64,000 bases of DNA from Physcia stellaris (taxonomy: Eukaryota; Ascomycota; Lecanoromycetes; Caliciales; Physciaceae): contig JABSSW010000042.1 of NCBI GenBank assembly GCA_018902385.1, forward strand, positions 124,001 to 188,000, read 5' to 3'. The translations under genes were made by a program, and so were the position numbers. Numbering within the stretch: the first letter of the stretch is position 1; the number at the start of each line of letters is the position of its first letter. Positions 35,187 to 60,100 of this stretch are shown here, in pieces. The notes under the pieces were generated by a model. It was not told the DNA's origin, ran no database searches, and was given only the letters and a program-made list of their open reading frames with translations.

Positions 35187-35455
35187 GCTTCGCCCCGAAG
35201 CGATCAACCCATTGCTCCTCCTCCTCCCATCGGTCGGCAGTGTACGTGGCCTCGGTGGCTTGTTTGTAGGTGCGTTGAGTCCATAGCGGACGCGACAGCC
35301 ATGGGGATGTACAGGGGTCTGAACTGGAGACGGCGGAGACGGCGGAGACGGCTTCTGCAGTCCGATGCGGCTTTGACATTTGCGGAGGCCTTTGGATGTC
35401 GGAGATACCTGACATTTAGTATGGTGAAACGGCCGTTTTCTCGGAGCATGTAGGT
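35182..35455. repeat. Diverged duplication of 36167-36430 inside the LTR element
   Basis: Both segments begin with ctctcagcttcg-cccgaagcga, share ggcttctgcag in the middle and end with a related tail about 260 bp on. The second copy covers the 3' end of the gag-like frame, so the 35.2-35.5 kb copy looks like an old duplication of the frame's tail and downstream UTR. Confidence 0.7.
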
Positions 35456-36380: not shown

Positions 36381-39300
36381 TCAAATGGCAGGAGACATCT
36401 GGCAATTTGTATGGTAAATCGGCCAATTTCTCAGGCAAGCTTCTGCTGAAGGCAGTGCGGATTGATTCCGCAGGCATGTGCTGGTCCAAACTCTTCGGTT
36501 TTGAGCTTTTGAGTCCTGACTAATCGACGGCTCCTGATTGGCTCTAGGCTTGAAGTAGGCGGTGATTCGCATTTGGCCTGAGGGTGCTTGAGAAGACACG
36601 TTGTTTTGGCCCTGAAATAGGCCCTTTCTTCTGGATTTCTCATCGAACATTTCGAACAGATTTTCGATAGTGAGGTCAGGCTTGACCGAGCAGGATTGAC
36701 GGATACCGGAGCCCTGCTGAGAAGGATGGCGATTATGGTGCTGCCGCAGGCCAAATGGCCTAGACTTCCCAGCAAACATGCGGCTCAGGTCATTCGCAGT
36801 TAGATAGGACTTCTGGATGTGAGGTTCTTGGTGTTTTCGGACGGGGCTATGCGGTGGAGTAGATGGAGGAGGGAGCGGGCTAACAGCGGCTACGCTCTCC
36901 GCCGGCTTTGGAATGATTTTGTATGTCGCAATCGGGAGATCTGAACGCGTTGAAGCGGTCTGTGAAAACCAGGATTTCTGACTTCTTGGTGTTGCAGGGG
37001 GGGTAGGTGATTTCTGCGGAGCAAGCGGAGCAGGCGGGCAAATGCTTGCTGGGTTCCCAATGGTTTTGTATGTGAGCTCTGGTGTGGGGGCTTGGGGATT
37101 CAAGCTTTTGACAGGCTTTCGAGCATGATGTTTCCGGATATGATCGTGGAGCTTGTTATTGGAGTTGAATATCCGATTACAACGTCGGCATGTTGCTGGC
37201 CTCTCCGTTGACCCTAGCCTAGTTTCGGGTGTAGGAGACGAGAGATCCGAGGGTTTCAGTAGAGTGATTGTTCTGGATGCTACTGCAGACTCGGATATGG
37301 GTCTTTGGGGTTTCGCAGGTGGAGCAGGCAATTTATGCGGAGCGGGTGACGTCTCCTTGATTTCGCATACTAAATTGACTGCATTGATCGAGAGATGAGA
37401 GTCCTTGACGGGCTGCTGAGTTTCATGATTGCGGATATGCTCGTATAACTCCCTGTTGGAGTTGAAGCTCTGCTTGCAAAGCTTACAGGTCACTTGGGCG
37501 CATGTGGCTTCTTGATCTGATGCGCTCTCCATCGACTTTGGTGCAGAATCGAGTGCACGTAGCTGGAGACTCGAGCATCTCGCCGAAACAGACTGCAAAG
37601 GTGTTTCCATACTTGGTGTTGCGGAGGTCAGTGGTTCAACGTGCGTGACGGATGGTTTCTCCTCGATCTCGCATATTAAATTGATTGCATTGATCGAGAG
37701 ATGAGAGTCTCGCTTCCGAGATTCTTGCTCGGCCAACTCGGCTTGTTCCTGGGCTTCCTGCTCTCGTTGATGTGCACGGCGAGCGAGTTGTCGCTCCAAT
37801 CTATGACGTAGTGCTTCATGGCACGAAGGAGATTCGAGGTAATGATCTTTGACTGAAGGAACTTCGATTCGGCAGGTAGGACAACTCCTCTTGAAGGTGA
37901 TAAAAGCTGAACTCTCCTGGATTTCGCATACTGACTTGGCTGTATTGATTGAGAGAAGTGAGCAGGATTCTGAAAGCTTCTGAACAGAGGCTTCTTGGGG
38001 ACTTGATTCGAAAGTTTGAAAAGGTGGTGATTTCGACGGAATAGGTGAACAGTGAGTTGATGTATTCTCCATCAACTCTGGTACAGTTTTTGGTGCATCA
38101 GATTGGAGATGTGAGCCTTTCGATGAAGTGACTGCCTCGGAGGTCTTGGCGGACTCGGATTTCTGCTTTGGTGTTGCAGTAGAGGTATCAGGTTCCTGCG
38201 AAGCAGGCGGAGCAGGCGAATCAATGGCTGTTGACTTCTTCATCGTCTCGCATACCACTTTGGGTGTTTCAGTCGGGAGACTCGAACTTTTCGGCGGAGT
38301 GACTTCGGGGGCTATCTGAATTCGTGGAGCTGTAGGTAGGATATGCGGAGCTTGCAGAGCGGGCGCTTTAATGGCTGCTGGGCTCTCCTCGATTTCGCAT
38401 ATCGACTTGGCTGTATCGATTGAGAGAGACGAGCAGTTGACCGGCTTCTTTACATGCTGCCCGCGCACGTGCTCGCGAAGCTTTTCCTTGGAGTTGAAGC
38501 TTGAATCGCAACGCATGCAGGTGATATTTAAACAATTGACTTTCGGCTTTGCAAACGGAGCATTCGCGAAATCGACTCGTAAGGTATCAATCCACTCTGT
38601 TAGCGATGTTGACTTCATGGTTGTTTGTCTATCGAACCAGATATCGAAAGCAGAACCCCAAAGGCAAGCGGGCAACAACGTAAGCAGATCTGACTCCCGA
38701 TACTGATGCTGACATTGTTGAAGATGTTGCAAGAACTCTTCTGACTCGCTGAATCGTCGATCTTCACATGTGAGAGTTGGATCGAAGATACCGATATCTT
38801 GAAGTGTTGGTGTTGATTTTGCTGCTTCTTCTGCCTTCAACGCTTTCGACTTGGCTCGTTTGGCATTTTTGACTGCGTTGGTCTTAGTCCTCTTCGCAAT
38901 CTTAATAGCATTTGGTTTCTGTTGTTCCTGCTCTTCAAGAAATTGCAAAGCGAATTCGTATGCTTGTTGATTCTGAGCAGCACAGAAAGGATATTGAAGA
39001 CGATGTGAGTCCCAAGTCTCGTAATCTAATTGACACCATTGACAGCGATCTGAGGTTGAGCCTTCAAACTCCTGTTGTTCCCGTGGAGCAAATGAAGTAG
39101 ATGGATCAGTTCGATTGGCCAAAGCAGAATCTGCTGAGCTCTCGGAGGTCTCGCATATTGGTTCTGGTGCAGAAATTGAGAGAGACGAGCTGTTGACCTG
39201 CTTGGGGGGAAATGCATTCGTCAGGGCTATATCGAAATCGTGTAATGAGGTGAACTCCGGCTGACCCTTGAACCAATCCAAAGCGGGACCCATTAAGCAG

Positions 39301-39509
39301 CCTTGCAACAGATCAAGCAAATCTGACTCCCGATGTAGGAGCTGCAGTTGCTGGAGCCGTTGCAGAATGCCCGTGGATTCGCTAAATATGTCCCATTCTG
39401 GATCATCGTCGGTGGCAGTCGGATTGAAGAGACCGAAATATGCAGGGGGGGCAGGCTTCGCAGCTTCAGCTCGCTTTCGGGCTTCTCGCTTTCGCTGCTT
39501 TGATGCCAT
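36381..39509 (-). CDS. Gag-like protein with C2H2 zinc fingers (LTR element frame)
   Basis: One uninterrupted frame of 1,042 codons on the element's sense strand. The N-terminus is highly basic (KQRKREARKRAEAAK). Two related gag/capsid-like modules follow, each with an L-x6-YRESDLL- or HRESDLL-type helix, a CL-G-A core and a trailing W (about 39,430-39,230 and 38,770-38,600). Three classical C2H2 fingers sit at about 38,525-38,444, 37,493-37,418 and 37,200-37,117, and two other Cys-rich segments have C-x2-C starts. At least six copies of a short motif like SSLSINTAKSICEIEES are spread along a Pro/Ser-rich chain. No polymerase part is present. The product would be expected to form particles or bind nucleic acid for the element. 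It is not a host gene despite being open. Confidence 0.8.
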   Translation of the reverse strand: MASKQRKREARKRAEAAKPAPPAYFGLFNPTATDDDPEWDIFSESTGILQRLQQLQLLHRESDLLDLLQGCLMGPALDWFKGQPEFTSLHDFDIALTNAFPPKQVNSSSLSISAPEPICETSESSADSALANRTDPSTSFAPREQQEFEGSTSDRCQWCQLDYETWDSHRLQYPFCAAQNQQAYEFALQFLEEQEQQKPNAIKIAKRTKTNAVKNAKRAKSKALKAEEAAKSTPTLQDIGIFDPTLTCEDRRFSESEEFLQHLQQCQHQYRESDLLTLLPACLWGSAFDIWFDRQTTMKSTSLTEWIDTLRVDFANAPFAKPKVNCLNITCMRCDSSFNSKEKLREHVRGQHVKKPVNCSSLSIDTAKSICEIEESPAAIKAPALQAPHILPTAPRIQIAPEVTPPKSSSLPTETPKVVCETMKKSTAIDSPAPPASQEPDTSTATPKQKSESAKTSEAVTSSKGSHLQSDAPKTVPELMENTSTHCSPIPSKSPPFQTFESSPQEASVQKLSESCSLLSINTAKSVCEIQESSAFITFKRSCPTCRIEVPSVKDHYLESPSCHEALRHRLERQLARRAHQREQEAQEQAELAEQESRKRDSHLSINAINLICEIEEKPSVTHVEPLTSATPSMETPLQSVSARCSSLQLRALDSAPKSMESASDQEATCAQVTCKLCKQSFNSNRELYEHIRNHETQQPVKDSHLSINAVNLVCEIKETSPAPHKLPAPPAKPQRPISESAVASRTITLLKPSDLSSPTPETRLGSTERPATCRRCNRIFNSNNKLHDHIRKHHARKPVKSLNPQAPTPELTYKTIGNPASICPPAPLAPQKSPTPPATPRSQKSWFSQTASTRSDLPIATYKIIPKPAESVAAVSPLPPPSTPPHSPVRKHQEPHIQKSYLTANDLSRMFAGKSRPFGLRQHHNRHPSQQGSGIRQSCSVKPDLTIENLFEMFDEKSRRKGLFQGQNNVSSQAPSGQMRITAYFKPRANQEPSISQDSKAQNRRVWTSTCLRNQSALPSAEACLRNWPIYHTNCQMSPAI

Positions 39510-39530
39510 CGCTCATGCGGGAGAAGGAAG

Positions 39531-40440
39531 ACGATTTGCTAAGGAATTAGGTACGTTTTCGGACTGATTCTCCGGCGTCGAAGATGGCTCGAATACTGAG
39601 TACTGGGGAGGAATTCTGCAGAAGTGATAAGAGTTCCCTGAATTGAGGTGATGTTGGCTTTATCGCAGAAACTGGGGATAGGAGCCGATTTGCTAGGCAA
39701 ACAGGTGTGATTCTAGAATGTTCTCGAGCAAGAAAGATGATGTGGGTATCGAATGCTGACGGGGAGCTTTCGTTTCTGGTGCAGAGCTCTGAAGGCTTGG
39801 TATTGAGTCTAACACCGAGACAGGAGACGGATGCTGATTCGCTAGGTAGATAGGTAGGAAATCGAAAGACTCTCGGGTGAGGAGGGTGGTTGCAATACTT
39901 AATACTGATGGAGGTTTAAAAACAACCTTCGGGATCGATACTGAGGCTACCGCTGAGGCCGGAGAGTATGGCCGATCGGTAAGGAAGACAGGTATGTTTT
40001 GGCAATGTTCTCGAAAGAGATAGGTGGTCTCGGTATTGAGGCAACGTGGGTATTGAGGGCCTCTGAACTCGAGGTGTGATGGTTTCCTTGCCGTGATACT
40101 CAGCTCACCGAGTGAACGGGAGAGTAACACTGAATTGGTAGGCCGATGGGTATGTTTTCGAGCTGGCTCTCAAGGTAATAGGATAGCTTCGATGCCGGGC
40201 TTTGGCGAAGTGTTGAATCGAGATATAAGGGCTTCTTGACTTGATGTCACAGTCACTTCCGTACAGCTTCCTGGTTGAAGTATTAAAGCAATCGAATAGA
40301 TAGGAGAGGATGGTCGAGTTGCTAGTAAAGTAGGTCTGATTCTGGAGGATTCTCGAAGGAGGTAGATGGTTCGGGTTCAACCGAGGAGGTGAAGGTTCTA
40401 TCGAAAGTATCTGGCCGAATAACGGGGTTTCTGGTTCGGC
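39531..40440. repeat. Degenerate ~150-bp tandem repeats in the element leader
   Basis: Related blocks with a -gctagg-a-a-aggt- start and a -ttctcga- centre begin at about 39531, 39687, 39837, 39974, 40133 and 40316 (spacing 137-183 bp). They lie between the upstream LTR and the gag-like frame in element orientation. On the minus strand they read as similar short peptides, so they may derive from a repeated coding segment. Confidence 0.6.
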
Positions 40441-40944
40441 CTCTGGTCGGGTAATTTCGAATACTTCTGGTATGGTGTTTTCGTGATGTAAGGGGGTTCG
40501 TTGACTTGGTGGTTTGAAAACTTGGTGGCCTAGGCCTGGTTTATTGCTTAATGGTTATGATGTCACAAGTGACTCCGAACGCCGTCTGCATGGCCTGTCG
40601 GTAAAATGGGTGCGTGGTTAACGCTCGAGGGTATCAAACAACCGTCGCTTCGGTCACAGTTTACAACTACCTCGTCGTCTCGCTGAGTACCGGAATGGCC
40701 CTTCCGTGGAAGTCCACACTCGAAACCGCTGTTTCCTGGGAGTGACCTGGATGGAGTAGAGCTTCGTTGCTCTCACTCAGATCGCCTAGGCTTTCGACCT
40801 CACGTGGGCAGAACTACGTCGTTCTCGCTAGCACGTCTAGGATTTGGTGACGTCTTAGGTCTTCGCATTTGTTTGGGGTCTTGTTTATTGAGTAAGCTGT
40901 CGTACCTCGAGCAGCTTGAAGGGATTAGGGTGACTTCGATATAA

Positions 40945-41139
40945 TGTGAGGTGCCATGCATTGGTAAGGTACTAATACATAATTACACGAGGATATCGAA
41001 GTGGGGAGCAAATACATGGGGGCCTGCAGAGGCATATGTAGGAGGTTTGGTCATAGGCGGGCCCCGGCCCTGCCACCCGGTGTGATAAGATAAGGGTGTT
41101 AGCCCTGCCAGGTGTTGGATCCGGTGCACGCTCGTCACA
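40945..41139 (-). repeat. LTR (5' LTR in element orientation)
   Basis: 195 bp, partner of 34972-35166. It is followed on the plus strand by the second copy of the CAACA target duplication. Confidence 0.95.
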
Positions 41140-41450
41140 CAACAACGACATCAATAATAAAAACGAATGATGTGTTTACAATAATTTTATGTTTTGACAT
41201 AAATTCATGTCAAAACATGAAATAATTGTAATTGTCAATGAAAAACATTGAACAATATTTTTGATTCGATTGTTCATTTTGTATAATAAATCGTATGATA
41301 ATCAAACGATTTAATTTGAAAATTCTTTTTGAATTTTCGTTTTATTTCAACAATTTTTAAACGAAATACGAAATAAATTGTTTCGAAATCAAATTTATTC
41401 GAAAATCGTGCATTTCACGTTAAAAAATAATTTTTGTATTGAATTAACAA
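41140..41450 (+). repeat. Left arm (second part) of the inverted repeat
   Basis: Continues 34427-34971 beyond the LTR element and mirrors about 42530-42835. Its end (cgtgcatttcacgttaaaaa, about 41408-41427) recurs in direct orientation at about 42373 and in a less mutated form at 56278-56342. Confidence 0.82.
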
Positions 41451-41706
41451 GATAAACGTCTGCAAATTGCAACAACGTTTTATTATAAAATTAAAATTAT
41501 CAATTATCACAATTTTCGTCATCATTTCATGATTTGTCAACAATCATTTTATTGTGTATCGTTTGAAAAACATTGACAACACGATTATACGTTGAAACGT
41601 TGATGTTTTTGCGTTCGAATATACATACAATTACGTTCAAATCGCAAAAATCGAACGTTTCGTTGCAATACGACTCAATTGATTTTTGATGAAATCAACA
41701 TTTTTC

Positions 41707-41763
41707 ATATCATGTCATAACATGACATGACATGACATGACATAACATGACATAACATGTCAT
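41707..41763. repeat. Short acatg / acataacatg tandem repeat
   Basis: Units of 5 bp (acatg and the variant acata) are repeated about ten times. Confidence 0.75.
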
Positions 41764-41875
41764 ACAATAAAATATGCATATATTGTATATTTTTTACAAG
41801 AATTTTTTTTAGCGCTTTTTTTTTTAGCGTCGTTTTTAATTCGTCGCATGTCGCATGTCGCATATCGTTGATTGC

Positions 41876-42197
41876 ATTACTATTACGAAATACGAAATTT
41901 GCAATTCAACAAAACAACGTATTACGAAATTTGCAATTCAACGAAACAACGTGTTACGAAATCAATTACGAAATTTGCAATTCAACGAAACAACGTATAT
42001 ATTACGAAATTTGCAATTCAACGAAACAGCGTATATATTACGAAATTTGCAATTCAACGAAACAGCGTGTTACGAAATCAATTACGAAATTTGCAATTCA
42101 ACGAAACAACGTATATATTACGAAATTTGCAATTCAACGAAACAACGTGTATATTACGAAATTTGCAATTCAACGAAACAACGTGTTACGAAATCAA
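41876..42197. repeat. ~36-bp tandem repeat array
   Basis: About nine units built on acgaaatttgcaattcaacg followed by aaacaacgt and a tata or gtta spacer. Spacing varies between about 36 and 54 bp through loss or gain of an atcaatt block. It sits in the loop of the inverted repeat. Open frames across it are by-products of the repeat. Confidence 0.88.
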
Positions 42198-42529
42198 CGT
42201 GACAACGTTATCAAATTTTGAGCAATTTTTGATTCAATTGTTCAATTTGTATGATAAATTGTATGATAATCAAACAGTTGATTTGAAAATTCTTTCAAAA
42301 TTTTCGTCGTATTTCAGAATTTTTAGACTGAATACGAAATAGATTGTTTCGAAATAAAATTTATTCGCAAATCGTGTTTTTCACGTTAAAAAATCATTTT
42401 TGTATTGAATTAACAAGACATTGTCGTTGAATATGCAACAACGTTCTAAAAATGAAAAAGAAAAAATTAGAATTCATAAAGTTGATTTCGAAATAAAGTT
42501 AGTTCATGTCGATATTTGCATCAATTTCA

Positions 42530-43350
42530 TTAATTCAATACAAGAATTATTTTTTAACGTGAAATGCACGATTTTCGAATAAATTTGATTTCGAAACAAT
42601 TTATTTCGTATTTCGTTTAAGAATTTTTGAAATAAAACGAAAATTCAAAAAAATTTTCATATTGATTGTTTGATTATTATACAATTTATCATACAAAATG
42701 AACAATCGAATCAAAAATATTGTTCAATGTTTTTCATTGACAATTACAATTATTTCATGTTTTGACATGAATTCATGTCAAAACATGAAATTATTGCAAA
42801 CACATTATTCATTTTTATTGTTGATGTCGTTGTTGAACAATTGTGAAAATATTTTGCAATACAAATTAATATGAAAAATGACATGAAAATTTGTTAAAAA
42901 CGAATACAACGATTCGAAATCATGAAATTTTTGACGCATTGATGTATTAACGATATGCGATAATCGTGTTCAACAACGTTAACGTGTTCAACAACGTTAA
43001 TGTGAAATGCACGTTAGAAAAATTCTTGTATATATATTGCAATTGCAATAGAAATTGCAATAGAAATTGCAACAATGTTGCAATTGCAATTGCAATAATG
43101 AAATTCAATCAAAAATCAATTGTCAATTGCTTGAACAAACGTTCGATTTTTGCGATTTGAACGTAATTGTATGTATGTTCGAACGCAAAATCATCAACGT
43201 TTCAACGTGTAATCGTGAATTGTCAATAATGTGATGTTTCGTACAACAGAACAATGATAATGATGACAAAACGATAATACTAAATAACGAAAATCACGAT
43301 ATTTGATAATTTCAATTTTAAAATAAAACGTTGTTGCAATTTGTAAACGT
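42530..43350 (-). repeat. Right arm of the large inverted repeat
   Basis: Reverse complement of 34427-34971 plus 41140-41450, with small length differences. It is mutated along its whole length and shows the uninterrupted site (gatgtcgttgttgaacaatt) corresponding to the place where the LTR element entered the left arm. Confidence 0.85.
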
Positions 43351-46212
43351 TTGTTTTGTTATATCAACATCATGATTTGAAACAAAATCGATGAAAAAAA
43401 CAATTTGATCGCAATGAACGTGTATCAATTATAACGTTTGAATCAATGATTGTTACAATGAAAAAAAAAATATTCGTACAATTCATTCGTGTTGATTAAA
43501 AGTTCGTTAAAACGCGATTAATCGACAAAATAAAAACGAAAAATATGTACAATAGAAATCATTTCATCGCGTCTTTGTGTCAAAACATGATTTTAAAAAA
43601 ATATTTGTTTAATAAAATCAATTGAATTTCAAATAATGAAATTTTGTCATCGTTAAATCAATAAATTAAAATGTTCATTCGTATTAATTCGATAAATTTT
43701 GCAAAAAAAAAAAAAAAAAATAAACAATAAAATTGATTATAATAAAAAAAATCAAAATAAATTTTTTAAAAATCGTTGAAATTTTTTTGCAATATCGTAT
43801 ATAACGATTTTTGCAATAAAATCGTTTTTCAATACAAAAATTTTCATAACATGATTTTATTTTTTTATCGCGCATATTTATTTTTTCATTTCGTTTTTTT
43901 TTTCATTTTCATTTTTTTTTTCGTTTTGTTTTTCGTCACAATTCGATTCGACGTCGCGTAAATTTTACGACATCATTCGAATCGAAAACACGCAAAAAAC
44001 GAAAATAATTTTTTTTTTACGACGATTGATCGTCGTGAAATTGAAATTCAAAATTTATTTCGTTTTGAAAAGAATGTTTTTGTCGATTTTGTTTTTTCGA
44101 TGATAAAAACAATATCATTCGAAATAAATTCGAAATCGAAATCGAATTCGTCGTCGTAATCGTCATGATGTTGTTCAAATTGAAAATTTTCGTTTTCGTT
44201 TTTTTTTTCGTTTTGAAACAAAAACAATGATAAATCGTCGACGACGTTCGAACGATTATTTAATGATTCGTCGTCGTTATCGTTTTTATTGAATTGCGCA
44301 CGATCATTTGTCATAATCGTTGTTGAAAACAACGATTGACGACGTTTGTTCGATAATCGTCGCGAAAAAAACAAATTTGCGACAAAATGATTTTCATCAT
44401 TTTTGATCGAAATTTTAATTTTTTTTTTTTCGTCAACGAACTTTACGTTTGTGACGATGATTTGAAACATCATTTTCATAATTTCGAATTGAATACGCAT
44501 CGAATTTGAAAAAATTTAACATTTGAAACATTGAAAATTGAATGCATTTATTGAATGAACAATTCGATGTTTTGTGTTTGAATATGCAATTTTCGCAAAT
44601 TTCGAAACGATTTCGTGTTTGAACGCATCGAAAAAAAACGAAATTGATTTTGTTTTTTTTCGTGATCGCGCATCGATCGCAAAACGACAATGTTAAATTT
44701 TCAACGATTTTTTTAATGTCAAAACAATGATTTTTCAAAATTCAAACAAATTCGCGTATTTGAATGATCAACGTTTGCAATTGCTGAAAATACGTCAAAT
44801 TCGCGAATATTCGATTCGCAAAATGCAAAATCATCGAACGCGTGTCATAAAAATTGATTAATTGAAAACAATCGAAAAAAAAAACGAAATTTGAATTATT
44901 TCATTGTCAAATTGTTTTTTCTAATTTTCAAATTTATTTATTTGCGCAATATTGACGAAAATTGTCGTTTCATTGTGATTCATTGATTTAATTAACACAC
45001 ATTTCATAAATTAAACAGAAAATACAACATACAAATGATTCAAAATTTCGTTTGATTAAACATCGCGATACATGAAAAAAAAAAAAAAAAAAAAAATTGC
45101 AATCAAATGTGATCGTGAAAACACGTTAATAAATCATTGATCGAATGAATACGAACAACACAAACAATCGAAAATTTATTTTAAATCACAATACGATAAG
45201 AAAAAATCGTTTTATTCAGAATTCGATGAAATCAACATTACATACGTTAAATATGTGATTCGTTTTCATAAATCATTGCAATCGTACAAATTCGATTTCA
45301 AAAAAAATAATGATAATAAAAAAATTTACGATAATTATAATGAAATTTGAATTTTTTACATGCAGAATTTCACAACGTGAATATCGCATAAAAATAAAAA
45401 AAAATATGTTTTGTTTGAAAAACACAATCATTTTAATTCACAACAATTTGAACGAAATATTTGAACATTTTGTATTTTCATTTAAGAATTGAAATTTACA
45501 CATTGTTTACAATTTTTTCGTATAAAAATTTATAAAAATTGAAATATGTTTGTTGAATATATTAATAATAATAAAAAATCGAAACATTGCATAAATTTTG
45601 AATAAATTTCATCAATATACACATTTTAAAAAGTTTTAAATATTCAAGTTGAAATTGTTTCACGACGAATTTGTTTCGTTATATTCAATTTTTCGTCACG
45701 ATCATAAAGTTAATTTTGAAAATTTCGCAAAATTTAAACATTTTTCGTATCAATGACATGATTCGATTCGAAATGAAAATTCATGAAAAATAATAAACAC
45801 GTCGTGCGACAAAAAAATTATAACGTTTCGCGTCGAAAAAAAACGAAAATTATTTGATATTATTGTCATACGATCACGTTAATTTCAATTTTATACATTT
45901 TATTGACAATATTTTTTAAACGTTCATATTCGATTATTGTTTGTTGATTTATTCGAAAAAATTTTTTATACAAAACAAAAATGAATATTTGATTTTATCG
46001 TTGCGTTTTATTCAATGCGATGTAAACATGTTTTGCGACGAACATATTATTGTCAAAATTTATCGATATGTTCGTCATTGTTAACGATTGAATTTTATGA
46101 ACGATCAAAACAAAAACGTTCAAAATTGAAAATTGAATTCGATTGTAAAACACATCATATAACGTTTTGTAATCGATGTAAAAAATTACATACAATTTTT
46201 AAATGATTGATA
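43351..46212. other. AT-rich mutated DNA with a Cys-rich frame remnant
   Basis: No intact gene. The minus-strand frame 44738-44433 has a C-x2-C start and several further Cys residues, including an ICENC segment, and is followed by 44500-44048, very acidic at its end. It may be a remnant of a zinc-binding protein, but I cannot name a family. Confidence 0.4.
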
Positions 46213-48440
46213 TCAATCACGTTGTAACGAATATGAAAAAAATTTAATTTTTATACGTTCGATCATTGAAAAAATTACGATAAAATAGTTTTTGTCATTC
46301 ATTTTGATGATTAAATCACAATTGTCGTTGATTATGTTTCGATTTATGAAATTATTTTTTAAAAACATCATTCGAATTTCAGAAACGATCATTATTTCAT
46401 TCGACAAATTGTTTTTTTTGACGAAATGTTTGTGAATTGATTCGAACAAATTTCGATCGCGTTTTTTATTTGAAATTTTGTGAACGATAACAGATAAATT
46501 GCAAATTTTTTTCAACAATAACGCGTTGAAACGCAACATTTCGTTTTTGCGAAAATGAAAAAAAATACATTTATGAATAAAATTATTGATTCGAAATTTT
46601 TGTTTTCGTCGATGAAATATATTCATGATTTCGTTTGTGATATTGTCAAAACGAACAATTTCAAAAAATCGTTCGAATTCTGAATCGTTGTCGTGTTTTC
46701 TGAAACGTTTCAAAAACAACGAAACAAAAATTTTTCAAACAAAAACATGAAAAACTTGACGTTCGTTGATTGAAAATAATTGCAATAAATCGTCAAACAC
46801 AATAACATGAAAATTTTCAAAAAAAAAAATTTTGTGAATTTTGACAAACAATTTCGAAACAAAATTGAACATTTCATTGTTGATTATGAAAATTTCATCA
46901 ATAATAAAAATTTTGATTTTTTTGAAATCGTTTATTGAATTTTCGATACGAAATATATTGAATTGTAACGATTCATGATTTGAATTATCGACGTTATTGA
47001 TGTGCAAATTGTTGTAAATAATTTTATTTGCGACGTTTTTTGCAACAATTTCGATGAAAATCATTTTGAAAATTCACAATTTACGATTATTGCATCACGT
47101 TACGAAAATGTGCAATAAAAAAAATTTGTTCGTTTTTTCTGAATCTGTAACGAAAAATTCTGTTTTTCGCGATTTTCGAAATGTAACAAAAAAAAATTGT
47201 TTATGATGCGTTGATACGTCACATATTGATTTTCATTCAAATTTAAATTGTCGTCGAACATCGAAATCGATCGAATTTTGATTTGCATTTCGAAAAATTT
47301 TTGTCGTATGCATTCATTTTCGATTTCGAATATTTCAAAAAATAAACGATAAATCGTTTTTAAATAAAAAATGTTAATTTTTACGTCGCGTTTAATCATT
47401 TGAAATGTAATTCAAAAATTTAAATTTCGATATTCGTTTGAATAAAACATCATGAAATGATTACGATAACAAAAAATTGTGAAATTTAATATCGATTTTC
47501 GAATTTTTTTTTTGTACGTCACGATTCAATCATGAACAATTTTTCGTAAAAAAATGTTTTTTCGTCGATCAAACGTCGTTCGATGTTTCGAATTAAAATA
47601 TTCTGAATTGATCAATTTATGTAAAAAAAAACGTTCGATCAAAAAATCATATTTGTTTTTTTTGACAACGTTTTTCACATCATTTATAATTTCAATTTCA
47701 AGTTTTGCGATTGATTTAATTAAATTGTATTGCGCGTGATAATCGAAATACGTCAATTGATCGTAAAACGATTCTGAAAAACGAACAAAATATTTTTCGA
47801 TTTGATTTTGATAAAAAAAATCAAATTTTTCGTTTTCATCGATTTTTTGTTCGAATAAATTTCGCTTTAATTGTCAAAAAAACTTCACGAAAATCGATCG
47901 TTTTTTTGACAAAATAATATCAATATACATCACAATTTTGTTGTAACGAAACATGTCGTAATTTAACATTAACATTATGATTTTCATCGATTTCATTTTA
48001 CGAATCATTAAATGTTTTTTAATGACGTTACGAATGAACAAATTGTACATGTCGTTCGATTCAATTTTGATGACATATTTGTTAACATACGCGACAAAAT
48101 AAATTTCGATAATGTATTGAATATTCATGTGTGCGTTTCAAATCAAAAACATTTGAACATTATATAAAAATATTTAACGATTTTTTTTTTTTAGTCGTTT
48201 GTAAATGTAACAATTGTCGTCGTTCACGATTTCAATTACGAACGATAATGATTGAAAAAATTCAATTTTACATCGAGATTCGATAATCAGATTTTTGCGA
48301 CACATATCGAAACGACACGTGTGAATTTGATGTTTCACGATTAAAACGTGTAATTCAAATTTTTTTTTTATTCGAAACATTTGTTCGTATAATTTATGAA
48401 ATTTTCGACGATCATTTCGAATATCGATTTTTGAATTCAA
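46213..48440 (-). mobile_element. Degraded Helitron: Rep C-terminal part and PIF1-like helicase
   Basis: Successive minus-strand frames match the order of a Helitron protein. 48440-48174 has HVLIVKHQIHTC and C-x4-C spacing, like the end of the Helitron-like N domain. 48128-47874 has YVNKYVIKIES and the following R-x-M-x-SM segment. 47399-47100 has LNENQYVTYQRI, the helicase start. 47064-46735 has IFIIDEIFII (Walker B) and HVIVFDDLLQLFSI (normally GDLLQLPPV). 46719-46213 has VSEIRMMFLKNNFINRNIINDNC, the C-terminal helicase motif. Replacements Gly to Asp/Glu/Asn and Pro to Phe/Ser are what C-to-T changes at CpC and GpG produce. The frames are broken in many places. Ends (TC / CTRR hairpin) were not found. 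The Rep N-terminal part probably lay at 48.4-51 kb. Confidence 0.72.
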
Positions 48441-51400
48441 AATAAAACATGAATATGAATAACGTTTTTCAATTGAAATTTCATTCGTTTTATCATTTTT
48501 TCGAATTTTTCGAAATCGAATACTTTTGAATTGCGTAAAAAATAAATTTTAAATGTTTTTCATCGAAAATGATAATATATTACAATTTTTCAAAATCGAT
48601 TACTTGAAATGATATTTCGATTGTTTGTATTAGCGAGAATTTTAACGTATTCAAATCATTTTTCGAAAAAAATCGTTGTCAAAAACAAATGAAATTTGCA
48701 TATTGTTTTCATGATGATGTTGATTTTTTGTTCGATTTGTATTCAATAAATAAAATCGATTCGTAATTGAACGAAAATGATGATCGTTAAATTTTCGTTG
48801 ATAATCGTGTGAAATTCATAAACGTTTTGTTTGATCAATTTCGTTGTGACAAAACGTTCGATTATTTGACGTTTTTTTCGTTCGATCATCAATTTGTTTG
48901 TGTTTTGAAAAATGCGAAATAATTCGATTTTCATGTATATTCATGTTGTTCAATAATGATCGTCACGAAAATGCGAAACGTTTCAATTCAATTTGTATTG
49001 TGCGTTTTTGAAAAACGTTTTGAAATAAAAATTTTTTTTTACGAAAATGTTCGATTTCATAGAAATAAAATCAAAAAAATATTCGAATTTTTAAATTTTT
49101 ATTATTTTTGAAATATTAACAATCGTCGTTGATCATGTTTTGCTTTTCAAAAAATCGATTGAAACGAAAATTTTCGTCGTGTGTTTTCGAATTATATTGA
49201 TCGACGTTTACGATAAAATCGAATTTGTGATACGATTTTTTTTCGTTTGAATCGAAAATTTCGAAAATAAAAAATTTCACAATGAAAATGTCGATGACGA
49301 AAATGATATAATTTTTCAAAAATCGATTGTGAATTTTCAATCAATTTGTCGCAATCGTTAAATTTTCGACATTTTGATTTTTATCAAAAATTTGAAAAAA
49401 CGATTGAAAAAATTTTCGATAATTTTCGAATAAAAAATCAACGTTCGTGAATTTTTGAACACGTACATGAAATTTTAATAAAAACGTGAACAAACATTTT
49501 CAAATTTTGTCATTACGATGATTTATTTGAAACGATTTTGTAAATGATTCAATTGTTTCGAATATCGTCAACGTTTTGTGTTTTTTCAAATTTTGTTATC
49601 AATTTCAAAAACGACAAAAAAATTCTCGATCGATAAAATAAAAACATTATTTCGTCAAATCAGAATTTTATTTGAAACATAATTCGTGAATTTTTTTGAC
49701 ACGAAACGCATACGATTACGAATCGATTATCGTTTTTATCAAATTTATAATGCAAAAATTGACGAAAAATCAAAAAAAAATCGTATTTCACGTTTTGTCG
49801 AAAACAAATCATTTCGTTTCGTCAAAAAACATGAAAATGTCGCAAAACGAACAAGAAATTTTGAAAAAACGACGATTGTAATTTGTTCGAAAATTCATGC
49901 AACAATTTTGAAAAACGATATGTTTCAAATAAAATTGTGAAACAAAAACGTCAATATTCGAAAATAAACAATTTTATTGAAAACGATAATTTTCGACATC
50001 ATGTTTGTTTTCGATGAATTGTTAAATGTCGATTCAAATAATTTTGTCGTCGAAAAAAACGATTGCAATGTTCGCATTTTCAAAAACGATTGTTTGTATG
50101 AATCGAAAAATGTTTTGTTTTATTGTTGTTTTATTGAAATTTGTTTCACATGTATTGCAAACATAACGTTTTTCGTTGAATTTGAATCACGTTTTCAATG
50201 TTGAAATTTCTGATCGCAATTTTGATATCATAAATCGCGTGATGAAATTCGATTTTTCGATAATAATCATGATAATTTAAATAAATTGAATATTAAAAAA
50301 CGTAATTTATTGAAACGATAAAACGAAAATAAACAAATTTTTTCACAATCGACAACGAAAAATAATCAAATTTAAAATATCGTTGATTTATTTGAATTGA
50401 CAAACTGTTTAATATTGATTGTACGAAAAAAATTTGTATATACAGAAAAATATTGAAAACAAAAATTCGACGATAATGAAATCAAAAATGATCGTAAACA
50501 ATTCGAAAAAAATAAAACGATTCGAACAAATCGAAAAAACGAAAAATGCGTTCAATTTCAAAACAAAAATCTGAAATCTTATACAAATTTGACATATTTA
50601 TCTGATTTGCTTTTCGAAAAAAAAAAAAAACAATAATACGAATGAAAAATATTTCACGATGAAATTTAATTTTATTTGATGTGCAATTGTGATAAAACAT
50701 GAAAAAAAAAACAAAATTATTTGAAAAAAAAAAAAATGAAAATTTTCATTAATCTGAAACGTCACGTGATGAAAATTTGATTTAATCGATCGTTATGACA
50801 AATATAATGAATATCAAAATTATTTTTGCAATGTGAAATTTTATACGAACATCAATAATTAAATTTAAAATGTCGACGATTCAAAAAAAAACGAATGCGA
50901 AAATCATTGATGACAAAAAATGATTTTTTTTCAAAAAATTTTCGAAATTTAATTGAAAAAATTGTTAAAAAATTTATTGTGTTTTATTTGAAAATCAAAT
51001 GAAATGAAACAACAAAAATCAATACAAAAAATCACGTTTAATTTGCTCATTATCAAAAAAATAAATGTTAAATCAAATCGTTATCGTTTGTTTTGTGATT
51101 TTGATTTTGCAAAAAATCATTTGAAATTTGCAATTTGATGTTGTTAATCGATTTCGCAACATTTTCGTTCGTCATAATCGTTCAAATCGTTTTTTTTTAC
51201 GTTTGATTTTTTTTTCGAAAAAGTTTCGTTTTGTTCATTTTCGACAATCGTTTTCGCAATCGCAATTTCGAAATTCAATTTCACGAAAATCGAATCGTCG
51301 AAAATTATTGTTTGCGAATTGTTATCATTTTCGATCAATGTTTGAAACATATAAAATGTTGAAAAAATTGTTGAATTCGAATCGCGACAAATTTCGATGA

Positions 51401-54400
51401 AAAAAAGTTAAATTTGATAAAAAAATTTTAAAAAAACGAATCGAAAAAAAAATTTGTTGATCGAAAGAAAATTTGAAAAAATCAAAACGTTCGAAAGTAA
51501 ATATTGTCGTTTTCAAACGATTTTTAACAAAATTTTTGAAATTGTCGAAAAACGAACGTTCGACAAATCGATAAAATTGAAATTCGATTATTTTAACGAA
51601 AATTAAATAACGAAACAATTGATTAAAATTCGACAAAATAAAAAAAAAATGAAAATTAATTATTTTATTCTGTTAAACAATATAAATGATTATAATGTTT
51701 CGAGAATTTTGTCAATAAAAAAATTTCTGTTGTCGTTCGAAATATTGATTTTTTTTACGTATATTTTTTGAATTTGTAATAATACATAAAAAAAACGTTT
51801 GTTGAACAATCGATTAATAAAATTTTCAAAAAATTGAATAAAAACGTATTTGCGTGATTTTTTTTTTTTTGATCGTCACGATCGAAATCGTAAATTTTTC
51901 ATTAATTTGTAAAAATCGTTTTGTATCATTTTTAAAAACAACAAAACATATTATTCGCACACATTCGTTAATTTATAAATTCAATTTGAACAATTGTTAT
52001 AAAATCGTGAATCAAAATCGTCGAATGAAAAAAAACTGAAAAAATAAACAAAATGACGACAAAAATCGCAAGATCAAAAATCAAATTTGATAAAAAAAAT
52101 TGATTTTCAACAACATTTCGTCGTTCAATAAATAAATGTTTTCGATTCGATAACGAATTCATTATTTTGAAAATTGAATGAAATGAAAAAATTTACGATT
52201 TTTTGTTTTTTTCATTTTTTGTGTAAATGATTTCGATTTTGCGAAATTTTTTTCGTTTGAATTTGATCGTCAATTTTTCGACGATAAAAAACGCATAATG
52301 TGAAATTTGAAAAAATTAAAATTATCAAAAAGCAAATTTATGCAACGAAAAAAAAAGTAAATTAAAAAATAATTAATAACTTTATTTGAATGACAAAAAT
52401 TGAAAAAAAAAAAAAACGAAAAACAAAAATTTTTATTCGATATTGACGATTGAATTTCGTGAATATTGAAACGAAAAATTCGAATTTTGATAATTTATGT
52501 TAAAATTTAAATGTTTGTTTATCACGATTGCATGCATTTTGACAACGATTTTGTTGAAAATTCGATTGATAATTTTGTAATTTTCAATCGTTTTATTTAT
52601 CGACGTCAATTGCATTTTTAACATCATGCGATAATCAAATTTTCGAATTCTAAATATGCAAATACGATCGTTTTGAAACGAATTGAACATTTTGAATCGA
52701 TGATTTTGAATGAACAAAAACGTTGAAATTTGAATTTTCAAATGAAATTTTGAAAATTCGATTATTCGAATTTGAATATGTATGAATTATAACAACGATT
52801 CGATTGTAAAATTCGATTGATATTCATACAAATTTTAATTTTTTTGCGTTTTCATCATCATGATCAGATTTTCGAATTTTAAATCGCGAATACGATCGTT
52901 TTCGATTCGATTCGAACATTTTGAATCGATAATTTTAATAATTGAAATTTCGAAATTTGAAATTCAATGAAATTTTGAAAATTGATTAAATTTTCAAATC
53001 ATGAATCGACAACGATTCGATTGAAAAATTTTTGAACGAATTGAAATTTTAATGTTTTTGTTTTTTTGTCAATCGTATTTGACAACATGCGATGATTAAA
53101 TCGTTAAAAATTTCGAAACGTTTTCAATCGATTAAAAATTGAAATTTTGTATAATTCAATCATTCGAAATGCGATCAAACGATTAATCGAATTTTGAAAT
53201 TTTGAATCGATTAATTCTTTTGTTTTTCGAAATTGATTGAAAACAAACAATTTGAAAATTTAAACGAAAAATAAAAAATTATATTTTAAAACGATGCGAC
53301 GTTAAATTTGTAAATTTCAATCAAATTGATTATTTGCATTTTGACGATCAAAAAAAATTGTTAAAAAAAACGTTAAAAAAAAAATAAAAATTCTTGTAAA
53401 AAATTTATAATAAAAATATGTATGTTATAAATATAAATTTCATGATAAAATTAATGTAATGATATAATAATTTAAAAAAATATTGAATTTTTCAAAATCA
53501 ATTAAGATTTGTTTGAACAAATCGATCGATTTTTGCGATTTGAACGTGATTTTGAAAATTTTAAATCGCAAAATCATCAACGTTTAATGTATATTTTAAC
53601 AATGAATGTCGTCGAAAATCATGTTTTTACGAAAAACGATATTGTTGTTGATAATGAAAACAGAAATTGTTAATCACAATTTTAAAATTTTTTGAAACAT
53701 GCGATCGTTACGAAAAATTAATTTCAACATATTTCAAAAAAGTTTTGCATATGAAAAGAAAATTAAACGTTTATACATATTTGTTGTTGATTTCGTACAA
53801 TATTTTATGTTGTTAAAATAAAAAATTAAAAATTTTGAAAAATAGTCGTTTTTGCGATCACAAATGCAAAAATCAATTTGTTTTTGTTAAAAATTTTTTT
53901 TTTTTGTTTTTTTTTTTTGTTTTCAATTCGAAAACATCATGAAACAAACAATTTTTGAACGTTGAATAATAGATTTTTCATTTTGAAATTGATTTTGATG
54001 TTTTTTAACAAATGTAATTTTGATTGCGTACAATGTTTTATGCAAAAAAAATATGAAATTGAAAATTTGAAAAACGAAATGTGCAAAATGAATAAAAATG
54101 ATTTCATTTTATTTCAATTATCGTTGTCGTCAATTATCGTTGTTTTTAATTCGAATCAATTTTTTTTTTTTTGAAACGTTTGTTCAAATTTCATTTGATT
54201 TTTTTTTTTTTTTTTGTTATAAAATTCGTCGATTTTTTTTTGAAACAATGTTTTTATCATACGTTTATATATTTTGTTTTTTTTGTTGTTGATCACATAA
54301 TTCGCGAATTCGTTTTAATTTATTTGTTTGAATATGTTTTCGACGACACGTTTGAATTCAAGTTTTGAAAACGAAAACGATAAATTGAATTTTGAAAAAT

Positions 54401-56277
54401 AAAATTCAAATCGATAAAAAAAAAGTTTAAAACAATTTTTTCAAAATGAAAAACAAAATTTTTTAAATGAAATGAATGAAATTGACGATGTTGTTAAAAC
54501 GTTAAACAATGATATTATAATTTCAAAAAAAAATTATTTGCGAAACACATTATTCAAAAAAATTCGATCGAAAATGAACATAATTGAAACAAATTTGAAT
54601 TTGAAAAACAAAAATTTGAATATTTTCGACGCAAAATGAGTAAAAAAAAACGAACAAATATTTGAATGAAATAAATGATTATGACAACGATCGCATTTCG
54701 ATAAATTTTTGCGATGATAATTCGAAAATTAAAAATGATACGATGAAAACGTTTTGTTTTTGCACGAAAAACAACGTTTCAACAATGACAATTGCACGAT
54801 TCATATAATTGCGTCAATTGTCAAAAATAATCGTTTCAAATCAAACGTCATAATGCATGTATTCGTAAAATCACAATTTTTTTTTTGCATCGATACAGCG
54901 TCAATTTTGAATGAAAAAAAAAAATTCAAAAAATTAATTTGAAAACGATCATTTTATTTTAATTGTTGTTTTATAATCATCATGTCGTAAATTGATGTTT
55001 CGAAATCGAAAAAAAATTTTCTCGCACGTTCGTTTATTTTAATAATCGTCGTTTTCGCAATTTTTTTTTCATTTATTTTAATTTTTGCTTTTTATTCAAC
55101 ACATTACACGATCGTTCATTTTTTACATCGTGACGATGAATTGTAATACGAAATTTTGAATTTGAAAAACGTATTTTTGACACGATTTAACGCGTTTTTG
55201 AATTTTCATTACGTCGTAAATTTCACACACATTCAATTGTGATTACGCGATCGTGTTTTCGATAACGACGAAATAAATGATTTTGAACATCAATACATGA
55301 AATTAATTTTTTTTAATCATTAAAAAATTTACAATTTGTTGCGTTTTTTTTTTCATTACAATTCAAATCAAGAAATTTGTCGAAACATTTGTTCGATTCG
55401 TTTTTTTTTCGTTTTTTGATTTTTTCTTTTTAGTCATTAGCAATTTTACAATTTGTTGCGTTTTTTTTTTTTACAATTCAAATCAAAAAATTTGTCGAAA
55501 CATTTGTTCGATTCGTTTTTTTTTTGTTTTTTTCATTTTTTTTTTCGTTTTTTTTTCATTATTCGTTTCGTTAATATTATTACATCGTTTTTATTTTTTC
55601 GATCGACGTTTTCAACATTTTTTTTTTCGATTCGTACATCATTTCGTCACAATTTTGTTTTGACATTTTTTTGTGCAATCGTCGTTGTTTCGTCAACGTT
55701 TCAATTTTTTTTTTTTGTTTTGCGTTCAATATCAGTTTTCAACGTTGTTACAACAACAAAAAAATAATGTTTATTGTTTGTTATATTTCATATGTTAACA
55801 ATGATTTCAAATTATCAATTCGATTATTTTGAAAATTTTCATTCGCGTCAAAATTTGCGTTTTGAATTTATAATTATGAAATAATTTATTCGATTGTTCA
55901 ACATTTTGTTCATTATACGATTCGAATTCGCGATTTTCTGAATGAAAAATGCTTATTTACAATTTTAATCGTTAAATCATTCAATCAAATTCGTTTCATT
56001 AAAATATTGATTTTTTATTTGCATATATATACATTATGCGACATTCAAACATATTTACATTTTTTCAATCAAAATCGTTTTTCAATCAATTTTTCATTTT
56101 TTCGTTTTATTAATTTGCAATTTTGACATTTTTTACATTCAAAAATTTTTTTTTGTAATTATTTTGTATTCGTCAATTTGAACAGTCAATTTTTTTGTTC
56201 GAAAACATCGTGATTATTTTCATTCATTCAACAATTCGATACATTGTAATTTTAATTTTGCGGTTTTTCGCGTTGCT
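48441..56277. other. AT-rich mutated DNA, no recognisable gene
   Basis: Same dinucleotide bias as the rest of the island. Many short frames on both strands are Phe/Lys/Asn/Ile-rich and low in information. The part up to about 51 kb is the expected place for the Helitron N-terminal region, but I cannot show it. Confidence 0.5.
55329..55527. repeat. Two-copy tandem duplication, about 117-bp spacing
   Basis: acaatttgttgcgttttttt with the following acaattcaaatcaa-aaattt and gtcgaaacatttgttcgatt blocks occurs at about 55331-55400 and again at about 55449-55520. Confidence 0.8.
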
Positions 56278-56342
56278 CGAAATAAACTTTATTCGCAAGC
56301 CGTGCTTTTCACGCTAAGAAATCATTCTTGTACTGGGTTAAA
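56278..56342 (+). repeat. Less mutated copy of an island repeat end at the right border
   Basis: cgaaataaactttattcgca and the following cgtgcttttcacgctaagaa match 42336-42400 (and 41370-41440) in direct orientation. The border copy keeps C and G where the interior copies have T and A. It marks the right edge of the island; normal GC content resumes at once. Confidence 0.75.
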
Positions 56343-57149
56343 TACGGAAGGAAATACAGGCAACCTCAATCCTCGGCGCGAAAGTCCTTCCTTTCCATAA
56401 AGAAATATATGAACTCGTCAGTTGTATAGGTCACCATTCGGCTCTAAGGCAACTGGGAGATCTATCGATGGGGTTGAGTAGGAAAATTCATTCATGGATA
56501 TCCCCCCTGAACCCACCCCATGCACTGGTGCAGGGTGTTTCCGGGCATTACTTTAGTCAGTCCTCCCACCTAAACTCAAAGAGTCACACCAATGCGTGGG
56601 ATACCGCAAGTATATCTACGGGATATATCCAACCAGTTTAATTCAGTAATCCAAAACGGCCGCTCCGAGTCACAGGATTTGCTCCCTAGGTTGATGATTG
56701 AGGAAAGATGCATAGTGCAATCGAATTCTGGGAGCCCTGTGTTCCCCATCCCATCCTCGACTGTCGGAGAAGCAGCCTACTAGCAATAAAGATATTAACG
56801 TGAAAAAGCATAGATGGCGAGAAGAGGGGCTGCTATAGAATTGATTGCAATATGATTTGAAAGCTGACGAGACACGAAGCTGGGGGAAAAGCAACTGCTG
56901 GATGACCGATATAAGGGTACTGGATCCTACAATGCTGCATTACATTGCCACTCACCCAAGGCTCGAACATACCAATGGACAGCTTTCGCTCGAACACGAC
57001 CATGGATTGCCTATGATGGGACTGACGATTCGGATTCTCAGATCTATTCTTATTTAAAACTGGAGGGATAGCGATTTGCAACTCCCCTTCACCCTACCCA
57101 TCGTCGCGATCCTGACACTAGACACTGACCTTGATTACAGCGGATAGCA
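56343..57149. other. Intergenic between island and SEC21
   Basis: No gene recognised; 3' flank of SEC21. A frame at 56592-56783 has no domain. Confidence 0.45.
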
Positions 57150-60100
57150 TCAAGATACACTCCCCACAACCAACGCAGCAACACCCTCCTCCTCGCTCCT
57201 TACCGTGATCTTCATCGTCACGCCGCTCCGAGCGGAGAACGCCAGTCTGATGAGCGCAGCCACTTTGCCGCCTCCGAGGGTTTTGCCGTAGAGTTTGAGG
57301 GTGTGGGTGGAGGTTGATAGGGCGACGTCTGTGCCGTCGAGGGGTTGGAGGGAGAGGGTTTTGGTCAGGGATTCTGTTGCATCTGTATCCACAATTGATT
57401 AGCTTGATGATTTTTTCAATGGTGGTAGGACAAGGCGAGTGTCATGGCAAGGCCGCTGATGTATTGGAGGTGCGTGAGGGGGAAAACATACCAGCGATAC
57501 TGCCCGCCGCACTCAGTTGCAAGGTCTCCTCGGCCTCCTCTCCATTCGCCCCCGTCGTCTCCCACACATGATCGAAGCTCCCTGCAAAAGCAGGCTGTAC
57601 ATAGTCACTCCCCACTAGTTCCAAATCCTCGACTTGATACTCATCCTCATAGCCCGTCTCATCCGTCTCGCCTGAGCTGGGATCGATCTCTTTGCTTGTG
57701 AATTTAAGGATATTGGTGAATGACGTGACTGGATACGGTGAATCGCCCACTTTCCTGAAGCTGACGAAGACGGTACCTAATTCGTCTGTGCCGAGCTTTG
57801 CAACAGGAACGATGAATTCTTCTTCCAGTGAGGTATCGTCTTCGGAGGGGGTGGCGGAGATGGAGATATCTTCTAGGATGGTGTGAGCGAGGGTGTTTTT
57901 GAGGTCGTATTGAATTACGATATGGTCTTTGTAGATGTGTTTTATGGCCGTGACGACGTATTCGGTTTCCGATTCCGTTAGTTCAACAGACTGGGACGAG
58001 CTGAGTAGGGGCCCGTGGGCTTTGAGTTCGGGGATTTGAAGCAGGGCTTGGGCGTGCTTTTGGGCGGCGGCCACGGCTGCAGCGGCTTTGTCGGCGGTAC
58101 CATTTGCTTGTTCCTTCTTAGGGCCACTGCTGGGGGCTTTGAGTGTTGGGGTGGCGGAGGTAAGTTTCTTGGTGCGCTCTTCCGCTAGGGCCTGTTCGTG
58201 GGATACGACGGGCACGGAAGACATGTCGAAGGCGGTGGCGAACGTGGCTTTGTCGTCCGCGGTGACATACATGACGAGTTGGTGTTCAAACGTAGAGAGG
58301 GAAAACATGGAGTCTATAACTTGTGAGCGCAAGATTTACTACGAGACGTTAGATATTACCGTTCTTGATAAACCGATTTGCCATTTCATCCTCCTCGCTC
58401 ATTAGTCGTAAATTCAGTGCTGCTCGGTCTCGCACTTCATCATCTGTATCGTCGAGGCATCGTGTGAGAAGCACATCCACGCTCCTCTTAAGCTCGGGAT
58501 CTTGTTGCCCGACTCCGAATTTAGCTAACGCAGTGACCGCGGCAGCTCGTACCAATGCGTTCTCAAGCACAACACGATTGTAAATGTAGCGAATATATTT
58601 TGTCGGGTGAGGTGTCTTGGGACCCTCGACGCCTAGCAAATGCAATATCCGCACCGCAAGCTTAGTAAATTCGCAATCTTCAATGAACTCGCACAAATGC
58701 GCAAGAGCTGGTCATATTAGTCAGTGGTGGTACAAGAAGCTGTCCTGACTCACCGTCTTCTTTACTGCCAGGCACAAATTTAATCAAGTCAAACATACTC
58801 TCAACTACCGCCCTCTTGAATTCATAGCCTCCTTCATCTCTCAAGATACCGCTTAAAAATGAGAGCATACCTGCTTGCTTATTAGGAAACTTTAGACACA
58901 GAGTTCGAATTGCTTCCACAACAGTGATCTTGAATTCGTCGGATATATCTGACATAAAGCTAGCGATTTGCTTCATCAGTCTGTCCACGCTGCTTTCATT
59001 GCCGGTTTTGAGCAGTGTGGTAATCGCAAAAGTAGCAATTGAGCGATTAGAGTTCGAGATCAAAGTCTCAATGTCTGGGTTGCATGACTGTACAGCTTGA
59101 GGCTTGAAGGAAGCGACTGTATGTAATATTCGTATGGCAGCGAACTTAGTAATGGCACGGGAGGATGCAAGGAAGCGCTGAAGAGTATTGATAGCTTGGG
59201 TCAACTCCCCTTCAGTAACATTCGGAACATTGCAGATGGCTTTGGCGGCTTCGAAGTTGACCATCTCGTTCTTGTCCCGTAGCCAGCCGTCAAGAAGTTG
59301 CATCATCGGTTTTCGTAGGCTTGCGTCATCCTCAATCAACTTCGCCGCCATTCGGACTAACATCATGGTGGCCGGACCGCTCTTGACCGCACCCGCAGCT
59401 CCATACTGTTGCACCATCTTCACCAGAGCCATCCGATCGTGCGACCTCATCTGGTATAGGAGACCTATCGCATGATATTGGCTCATATGATTGGTACCTA
59501 TCGGTTGTAGCGAATTTTCTCTTGTGGAAAACCCAAGCGAGAAGCCACTGGATGATTTGGATGAAGAGGCCGCTTCTTGGGTTTCACTCTGCCATCTGCG
59601 TACAACATCTCTAGCGATCGGTAATAGGTGGTAGGAAGAAACGAGGGCGGCGGAAGAAACAGAAGGAGTTTTGTCGACAATGGCTGTCTTGATCAACCTC
59701 TCAATTGCTTGGACAGTGGTCGCCTGATCCATGTCAGCAATAGTCTTTCCGACCAGATGTCTTCACGTACGTCTATTATCCTACACAAAGCCCTGATTGC
59801 ATTGGCTCTGTAGAGGATGTCACTACCGACAGCTGTGTCTTTCATGATACTGCTGGTGACCATGATAACGTCTTCCGCGGTATTTGCCAGTTCCTTAATA
59901 ACGAGGTATACCATTTGCCGTAACGAGGCATCCTTGTTTTGAAAGAGCTTGGAGATGCCGAAGAATAGGGAGGTAGCTTCATTGGTAGGGAATCTTTCCC
60001 CGGTGAAGAGAAGGAGGGCGATTTTGGTAAGGAGAATGCGGCATCTTCGTGGCGACACGGGCGAGGAGTTGAACAGCCGTGCTAGAGAGGGCTGTCAGCG

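Follow-up and report, generated by a model that had tools for sequence, protein, structure and literature searches.

Repeat-induced point mutation with an inverted target order, CpC >> CpT >> CpA >= CpG, as the best reading of an AT-rich island in Physcia stellaris

Which process removes cytosines that precede C or T from 15 kb of fungal DNA and leaves those that precede A or G in place? The question is raised by an AT-rich island in a stretch of 64,000 nucleotides from the ascomycete Physcia stellaris (assembly GCA_018902385.1, contig JABSSW010000042.1, positions 124,001 to 188,000), hereafter called the window, whose own numbering we use throughout. A preliminary description had pointed to a cytosine-mutating process specific for C before a pyrimidine (CpY), or to two layers of mutation and repair, in place of the CpA target of classical repeat-induced point mutation (RIP). 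Our analysis indicates that the island probably consists of mobile-element copies mutated by a RIP-like process whose target depends on the base that follows C, with CpC >> CpT >> CpA >= CpG.

The main part of the island (41140-56261; GC content 23.8%) contains not a single CC or GG, against 427 +/- 18 in 200 mononucleotide shuffles of the same sequence. No such dinucleotide starts anywhere in 41124-56261, which is bounded by a GG at 41123 and a CC/GG at 56262. CT and AG together are depleted to 120 (shuffles 1369 +/- 30, about 9% of expectation), whereas CG occurs 823 times against 213, an about fourfold excess, and CA+TG 1827 times against 1371. The CpG excess is purely relative, its absolute density being near that of the genic flanks: per kb, on both strands, positions 41501-56100 of the island and the flanks hold 110 and 114 CpG, 120 and 136 CpA, 8 and 133 CpT, and 0 and 117 CpC, respectively. 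CpA and CpG have thus been largely retained while CpC and CpT disappeared. The GC-normal flanks of the island are free of this bias, and the genic flank at 1-33900, with its ordinary dinucleotide counts, served as control. The count first given for a sample at 52861-53040 (14 CpG, 16 CpA/TpG, 1 CpT/ApG, 0 CpC/GpG) was exact on recount, and the pattern that it illustrated, C retained before A and G and nearly gone before C and T, is stronger than had been claimed, the loss of CpC being total. Three open reading frame (ORF) remnants of the island gave no clear Pfam match.

The island had been placed at 41140-56277. It is indeed CC-free from 41140, up to 56261, but 41140 is not its real start: a left remnant at 34525-34971, CC/GG-free between 34524 and 34977, has been severed from the main part by a later insertion. 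The inserted DNA (34972-41139) is a GC-normal, unmutated element of long terminal repeat type, 6.2 kb in length. Its 195-nt direct terminal repeats are 99% alike, its ends read TG...CA, and it is flanked by a 5-bp target duplication, CAACA (34967-34971 and 41140-41144). It has 220 matches in the genome, itself included. Its open frame of 1042 aa (36381-39509, minus strand) carries a C2H2 zinc finger, and no reverse transcriptase domain was found in that frame. As this GC-normal element sits within CC-free DNA, it most likely arrived after the island had been mutated. The element is young, and its four fetched relatives, L032 to L035, span the range from untouched to largely converted.

The window element could therefore be used as an unmutated reference against which these four relatives were scored in a directed manner; as for the mutation counts below, the comparison covers the fetched part of the assembly, on several contigs. 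In L034, 434 of 515 CpC sites (84%) and 234/590 CpT (40%) were converted, and in L033 247/427 CpC (58%) and 121/482 CpT (25%). CpA (43/587 in L034, 46/486 in L033) and CpG (51/497 and 44/394) were converted at 7-11%, near background, so that the preference for CpA that is typical of RIP, though not universal, is absent from both copies. The C:G to T:A transitions lie on both strands, with CpC>T at 74/128 and 171/277 sites of the two strands of L033. The two GC-normal copies gave 70/485 CpC, 40/516 CpT, 31/528 CpA and 38/453 CpG (L032), and 60/355, 38/355, 33/390 and 29/314 (L035).

A heavily mutated family is formed by a unit of about 9 kb at 43400-52458, recognized as multi-copy by repeat search. 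We compared its less mutated copy L028 with the window copy and with L025, L026, L027 and L030 (L029 was left out). Over these five pairs, the other copy has T at 86-96% of the CpT sites of L028, 11-16% of its CpA and 4-10% of its CpG. For the closest pair, with 1.6% transversions, L027 has T at 388/403 CpT, 150/1131 CpA and 40/1040 CpG of L028, the reverse counts being 15/30, 45/1026 and 36/1036. These comparisons make CpA a weak third target. The proposal of a CpY-specific process is thereby supported by pairwise comparison of repeat copies; the outcome that had been named as speaking against it, CpA as the main mutated context in repeat alignments, did not appear in the fetched part of the genome, where CpC and then CpT are mutated and CpA stays near background until late.

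Nearly all of the target signal sits in the 3' neighbour. The +1 base predicts mutation with a chi2 of 333 in L033 and 969 in L034 (3 degrees of freedom), compared with 8.5 and 17.5 for position -1, 6.9 and 7.9 for -2, and 4.3 and 25.4 for +2. Such +1 dependence corresponds to the geometry of DNA C5-methyltransferase targets (CpN), unlike that of deaminases that read the 5' base. The mutation load is, in addition, independent of age in the four copies compared, since transversion divergence is similar in the mutated (4.5% and 4.3%) and unmutated (3.9% and 5.8%) ones.

A single rule, conversion to T of a C followed by C or T on either strand, reproduces the dinucleotides of the island almost exactly. 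When C was changed to T in all CpC and in 94% of CpT (a fraction taken from the island itself), on both strands of genic DNA of the same genome, the divergence to the island at k=2 fell from 0.181 to 0.0017, and at k=4 it fell from 0.404 to 0.0073. A CpA rule worsened the fit (0.228 at k=2, 0.538 at k=4), a CpC-only rule left a divergence of 0.091, and the CpY rule with GC-normal elements as source gave 0.0026. The chief misfit of the CpY rule is TpA, predicted at 44.8 and seen at 60.8 per thousand, together with a shortfall of CpA (69.0 predicted, 60.4 seen). Both are expected from some late CpA loss, and an added 10% loss of CpA and CpG improved the divergence to 0.0010. Applied to four ORFs of the window (22696-33784, 3486 codons), the CpY rule created 36 stops, all from Trp codons, and the CpA rule 190; a CpY process would thus disable coding DNA mostly by missense change.

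The same order appears in a different kind of sequence. We noticed a CpY-mutated ribosomal DNA (rDNA) copy on contig C41 (locus L031, G000:C41, match 45899-46052), with matches to the large subunit, 5.8S and small subunit genes. Six aligned blocks were chosen by hand, and at their strongly conserved positions this rRNA pseudogene is changed, both strands taken together, at 17/19 CpC, 8/19 CpT, 0/16 CpA and 0/24 CpG. The ITS3 primer site had no exact match in the assembly, from which an intact rDNA unit may consequently be missing; COX1 had no match in the assembly either.

How widespread is this kind of DNA, and is it confined to repeats? Among 20 stretches of at most 10 kb, seven contain CC-free blocks longer than 200 nt (L007, L012, L015, L019, L020, L022 and L023, the block of L019 measuring just 328 nt) and 13 do not. 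Twelve of the 20 had been placed blind on contigs C1 to C6, and 19.5 of their 120 kb (16%) lie in CC-free blocks. Nine loci that are fully or nearly fully mutated (L015, L022, L023 and L025-L030) hold, per kb per strand, 0.0-0.2 CpC, 1.9-23.1 CpT, 57.8-64.0 CpA and 55.0-60.1 CpG: the first target is exhausted and the next is in progress. The (nearly) CC-free blocks searched were multi-copy in three of three cases. The 9-kb unit had at least 40 genome matches (25 of 82 candidates were scored, and the 40 do not include the window copy itself), and among the matches listed its long pieces (>2 kb) are 79-94% identical and lie on many contigs. A CC-free block of L007 had 64 matches and a block of L012, which holds three isolated CC/GG, had 31, both including themselves and with many short pieces; two near full-length relatives of the latter match at 93% and 91%. 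The one normal block searched, a genic control, matched only itself. CpY depletion in non-repeat DNA, another outcome that would have told against the proposal, is likewise not seen in the GC-normal DNA of this genome.

It had also been suggested that standard RIP indices could miss the island, and this is confirmed. We examined 284 one-kb windows from the window and 23 loci (L001-L004, L011, L016, L018 and L031-L035 excluded), a non-random sample as six of the 23 loci had been fetched as island copies. In the 104 windows with less than 32% GC the median count of CC+GG is 0, and only three windows exceed five (34, 17 and 6). The RIPper criteria (PMC6714961) were passed by none of the 104 AT-rich, 171 normal and nine intermediate windows; the composite index exceeded 0 in three normal windows, and the RIP product and substrate indices shift in the wrong direction in mutated DNA. 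In contrast, the ratio (CpC+GpG)/(TpC+GpA) separates AT-rich from normal windows, with medians of 0.000 and 0.788 and ranges of 0.000-0.333 and 0.360-1.754. As the common indices score such mutated DNA as clean, similar species may have been overlooked.

The preliminary description had recommended a look for methyltransferase genes of the RID and DIM-2 types, and both types are present. A PF00145 profile search found three genes in the genome, one DIM-2-like (L011) and two RID-like (L016 and L018). The best solved relative of L011 is 9bap, listed as a DNA cytosine-5 methyltransferase, which we take to be Neurospora DIM-2. L016 and L018 share an N-terminal block and the catalytic motifs; across 174 aligned columns of the catalytic part their identity is 40%. 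Both appear intact, with the catalytic motifs present in the frames read and the exons split. L016 carries EQT, presumably the motif of RID/Masc1, and L018, on contig C6, carries EET; by these motifs, the two genes are assigned to the RID/Masc1 class. A Pre-SET domain, of the histone H3 lysine 9 methyltransferase type, is also present. Taken together with Zn2Cys6 genes, this gene content would suit a filamentous ascomycete.

We infer the label RIP from the confinement to repeats and from this gene content. In this process C is converted to T on both strands, and the base on its 3' side defines the target. Since neither C>T nor G>A alters the pyrimidine or purine class of the neighbouring base, conversion at a CpY target neither makes nor removes other CpY sites, so that the process can approach completion. 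All CpC are lost first, then most CpT and, late, a minority of CpA. Duplication may be the trigger and action may precede meiosis, the putative catalyst being a RID-class C5-methyltransferase with changed target preference. One of the two RID-like genes is the most likely source of this activity, perhaps the EET variant. It is tempting, if rather speculative, to go further and suggest that this second RID-class enzyme on contig C6 might have turned into a CpC-specific mutator, that the target letter of RIP would then be evolvable, and that some share of the fungal genomes called 'RIP-free' could be false negatives.

Several observations weigh against a RIP-like origin. The ascomycete systems described are mostly CpA-first, so the enzyme here must differ in specificity. 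A mild CpC excess is also seen in the GC-normal copies (70/485 and 60/355, against T>C at 6-13%), and in L034 the effects at -1 and +2, though weak, are nominally significant. Some repeats, such as the window element, L032 and L035, are unmutated, and repetition alone is therefore insufficient; a similarity threshold for mutation is possible. Finally, a search for a chromo-shadow (HP1) domain found none, and its controls gave no signal either.

The main rival to a RID-like catalyst is the DIM-2-like enzyme. It could methylate those heterochromatic C that precede C or T; deamination or replication would then turn the 5-methylcytosine into T, in the sexual phase or in the course of many generations, with no RID step. 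Besides the presence of L011, two reports favour this scenario: Neurospora DIM-2 is stated to prefer CpT in a 2026 review (PMC13297926), and a functional dim2 promotes C>T changes during mitosis in Zymoseptoria tritici (PMC8016269). However, the dim2-dependent mutations of Z. tritici fall at CpA, and 5-methylcytosine in transposons of its dim2 strains is reported at about 43-61% of CG, 10-22% of CA and 3-8% of CC and at almost no CT (PMC8016269), whereas CpG and CpA are barely affected here. Moreover, slow deamination should track age. A load that grows with copy age is not what we found for the two mutated and two unmutated copies, which are similarly diverged by transversions yet CpC-converted at 84%, 58%, 17% and 14%. 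We thus consider this scenario rather unlikely.

Editing of element DNA by a single-strand cytidine deaminase (AID/APOBEC-like) appears highly improbable. Deaminases can densely mutate C to T in both strands of mobile elements (we made no search for a deaminase gene), but AID/APOBEC-type enzymes read the 5' neighbour, and in the copies scored almost all information lies in the 3' base and little in the 5' base. In addition, it is the first C of CC that is altered, as TC is abundant in the island (898) and CT rare (49).

Classical CpA RIP, with CpA restored in a second layer by repair or back-mutation, is hardly credible. Apart from TpA above the CpY-rule prediction (60.8 against 44.8 per thousand), which late CpA loss would give, we found no support for it. 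The CpA density of the island resembles that of genes, and partly mutated copies already have 58-84% of CpC converted with CpA near background. The two layers of the preliminary description need not be invoked. An AT-rich island that shows no clear gene would agree with a drift in base composition, with foreign or organellar DNA or with an artefact of assembly, but these can be dismissed with near certainty: CC/GG is completely absent over 15 kb that retain CpG and CpA, different repeats on several contigs follow one rule, and a GC-normal element has partly converted copies.

Further details concern the anatomy of the island and its surroundings. The borders of the island are sharp, CpY per 100 nt running 21, 7, 4 over 34401-34700 on the left and 4, 23 over 56201-56400 on the right. 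The less mutated copy of the 9-kb unit retains a PIF1-like helicase remnant (L028:5813-6172, E 1.3e-6), and repeats of at least 60 nt were not found inside L028; together, these sequence features suggest that the unit is a Helitron. On the left side (34513-34971 and 41140-43367) we observed several inverted repeats of 81-230 nt that are 83-97% complementary, including those of the left remnant with 42831-43265 (86-97%), which suggests nested or rearranged element copies. A short tandem array of two families, D1 and D2, with start-to-start spacings of 32-44 nt, occupies 41891-42194. The neighbouring DNA is genic. Polyketide synthase (PKS), condensation and AMP-binding/reductase frames at 22696-33784 adjoin the island as a gene cluster of the PKS and non-ribosomal peptide synthetase type. 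About 1.2 kb right of the sharp border, coatomer-gamma appendage and adaptin-type frames of normal base composition (57442-59732) probably form one coatomer gamma gene.

How does this process compare with known systems? It resembles RIP of Neurospora crassa and other Pezizomycotina in its dense C:G to T:A changes on both strands of repeated DNA, in the resulting AT-rich islands and in the RID- and DIM-2-type genes. It differs in the order of targets, CpA>CpT>CpG>CpC in N. crassa (as cited in PMC5496416), where CpC comes first here and CpA and CpG last. The use of CpT has precedents in N. crassa Tad1, some Stagonospora nodorum repeats and Magnaporthe, in which it is reported as a further strong target (PMC2621366); the same source gives a dual CpG and CpA bias for Aspergillus nidulans. 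In Trichoderma reesei, C>T mutation of duplicated DNA likewise depends on the 3' neighbour, but affects CpA and CpG about equally, then CpT, and CpC last (PMC5496416). Dim2-dependent mutation in Z. tritici is also C>T and is linked there to a methyltransferase, but is CpA-specific (PMC8016269). The RIP-like mutation of basidiomycetes shares C>T changes in repeats but falls on C before G, at CpG or TpCpG (PMC4014442), whereas CpG is kept here and 5' preference is slight.

The ascomycete reports that we consulted thus place CpA first or among the first targets (PMC5496416, PMC2621366, PMC5555474, PMC8016269), and a kingdom-wide survey of 1,239 species in 2025 described the CpA preference as shared by RIP-like defences (PMC12543289). 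The genome of P. stellaris is a clear counter-example; the term 'CpC' does not occur in the main text of that survey. In Coccidioides, one sentence of a review lists CpC as well as CpG among the affected dinucleotides (PMC9409882), although only CpG is named in another source (PMC4014442); CpC is affected there as here, but CpG is spared here. Our literature search for a CpC target returned no report with CpC first and CpG spared, the Coccidioides sentence being the sole lead. The dinucleotide survey of ascomycetes by Clutterbuck in 2011 could hold a precedent. In vitro activity of RID-class enzymes was not detected according to the 2026 review (PMC13297926), and this genome offers a natural comparison for what sets their target. 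Measured against all these systems, RIP with an inverted target order is the best reading of the island.

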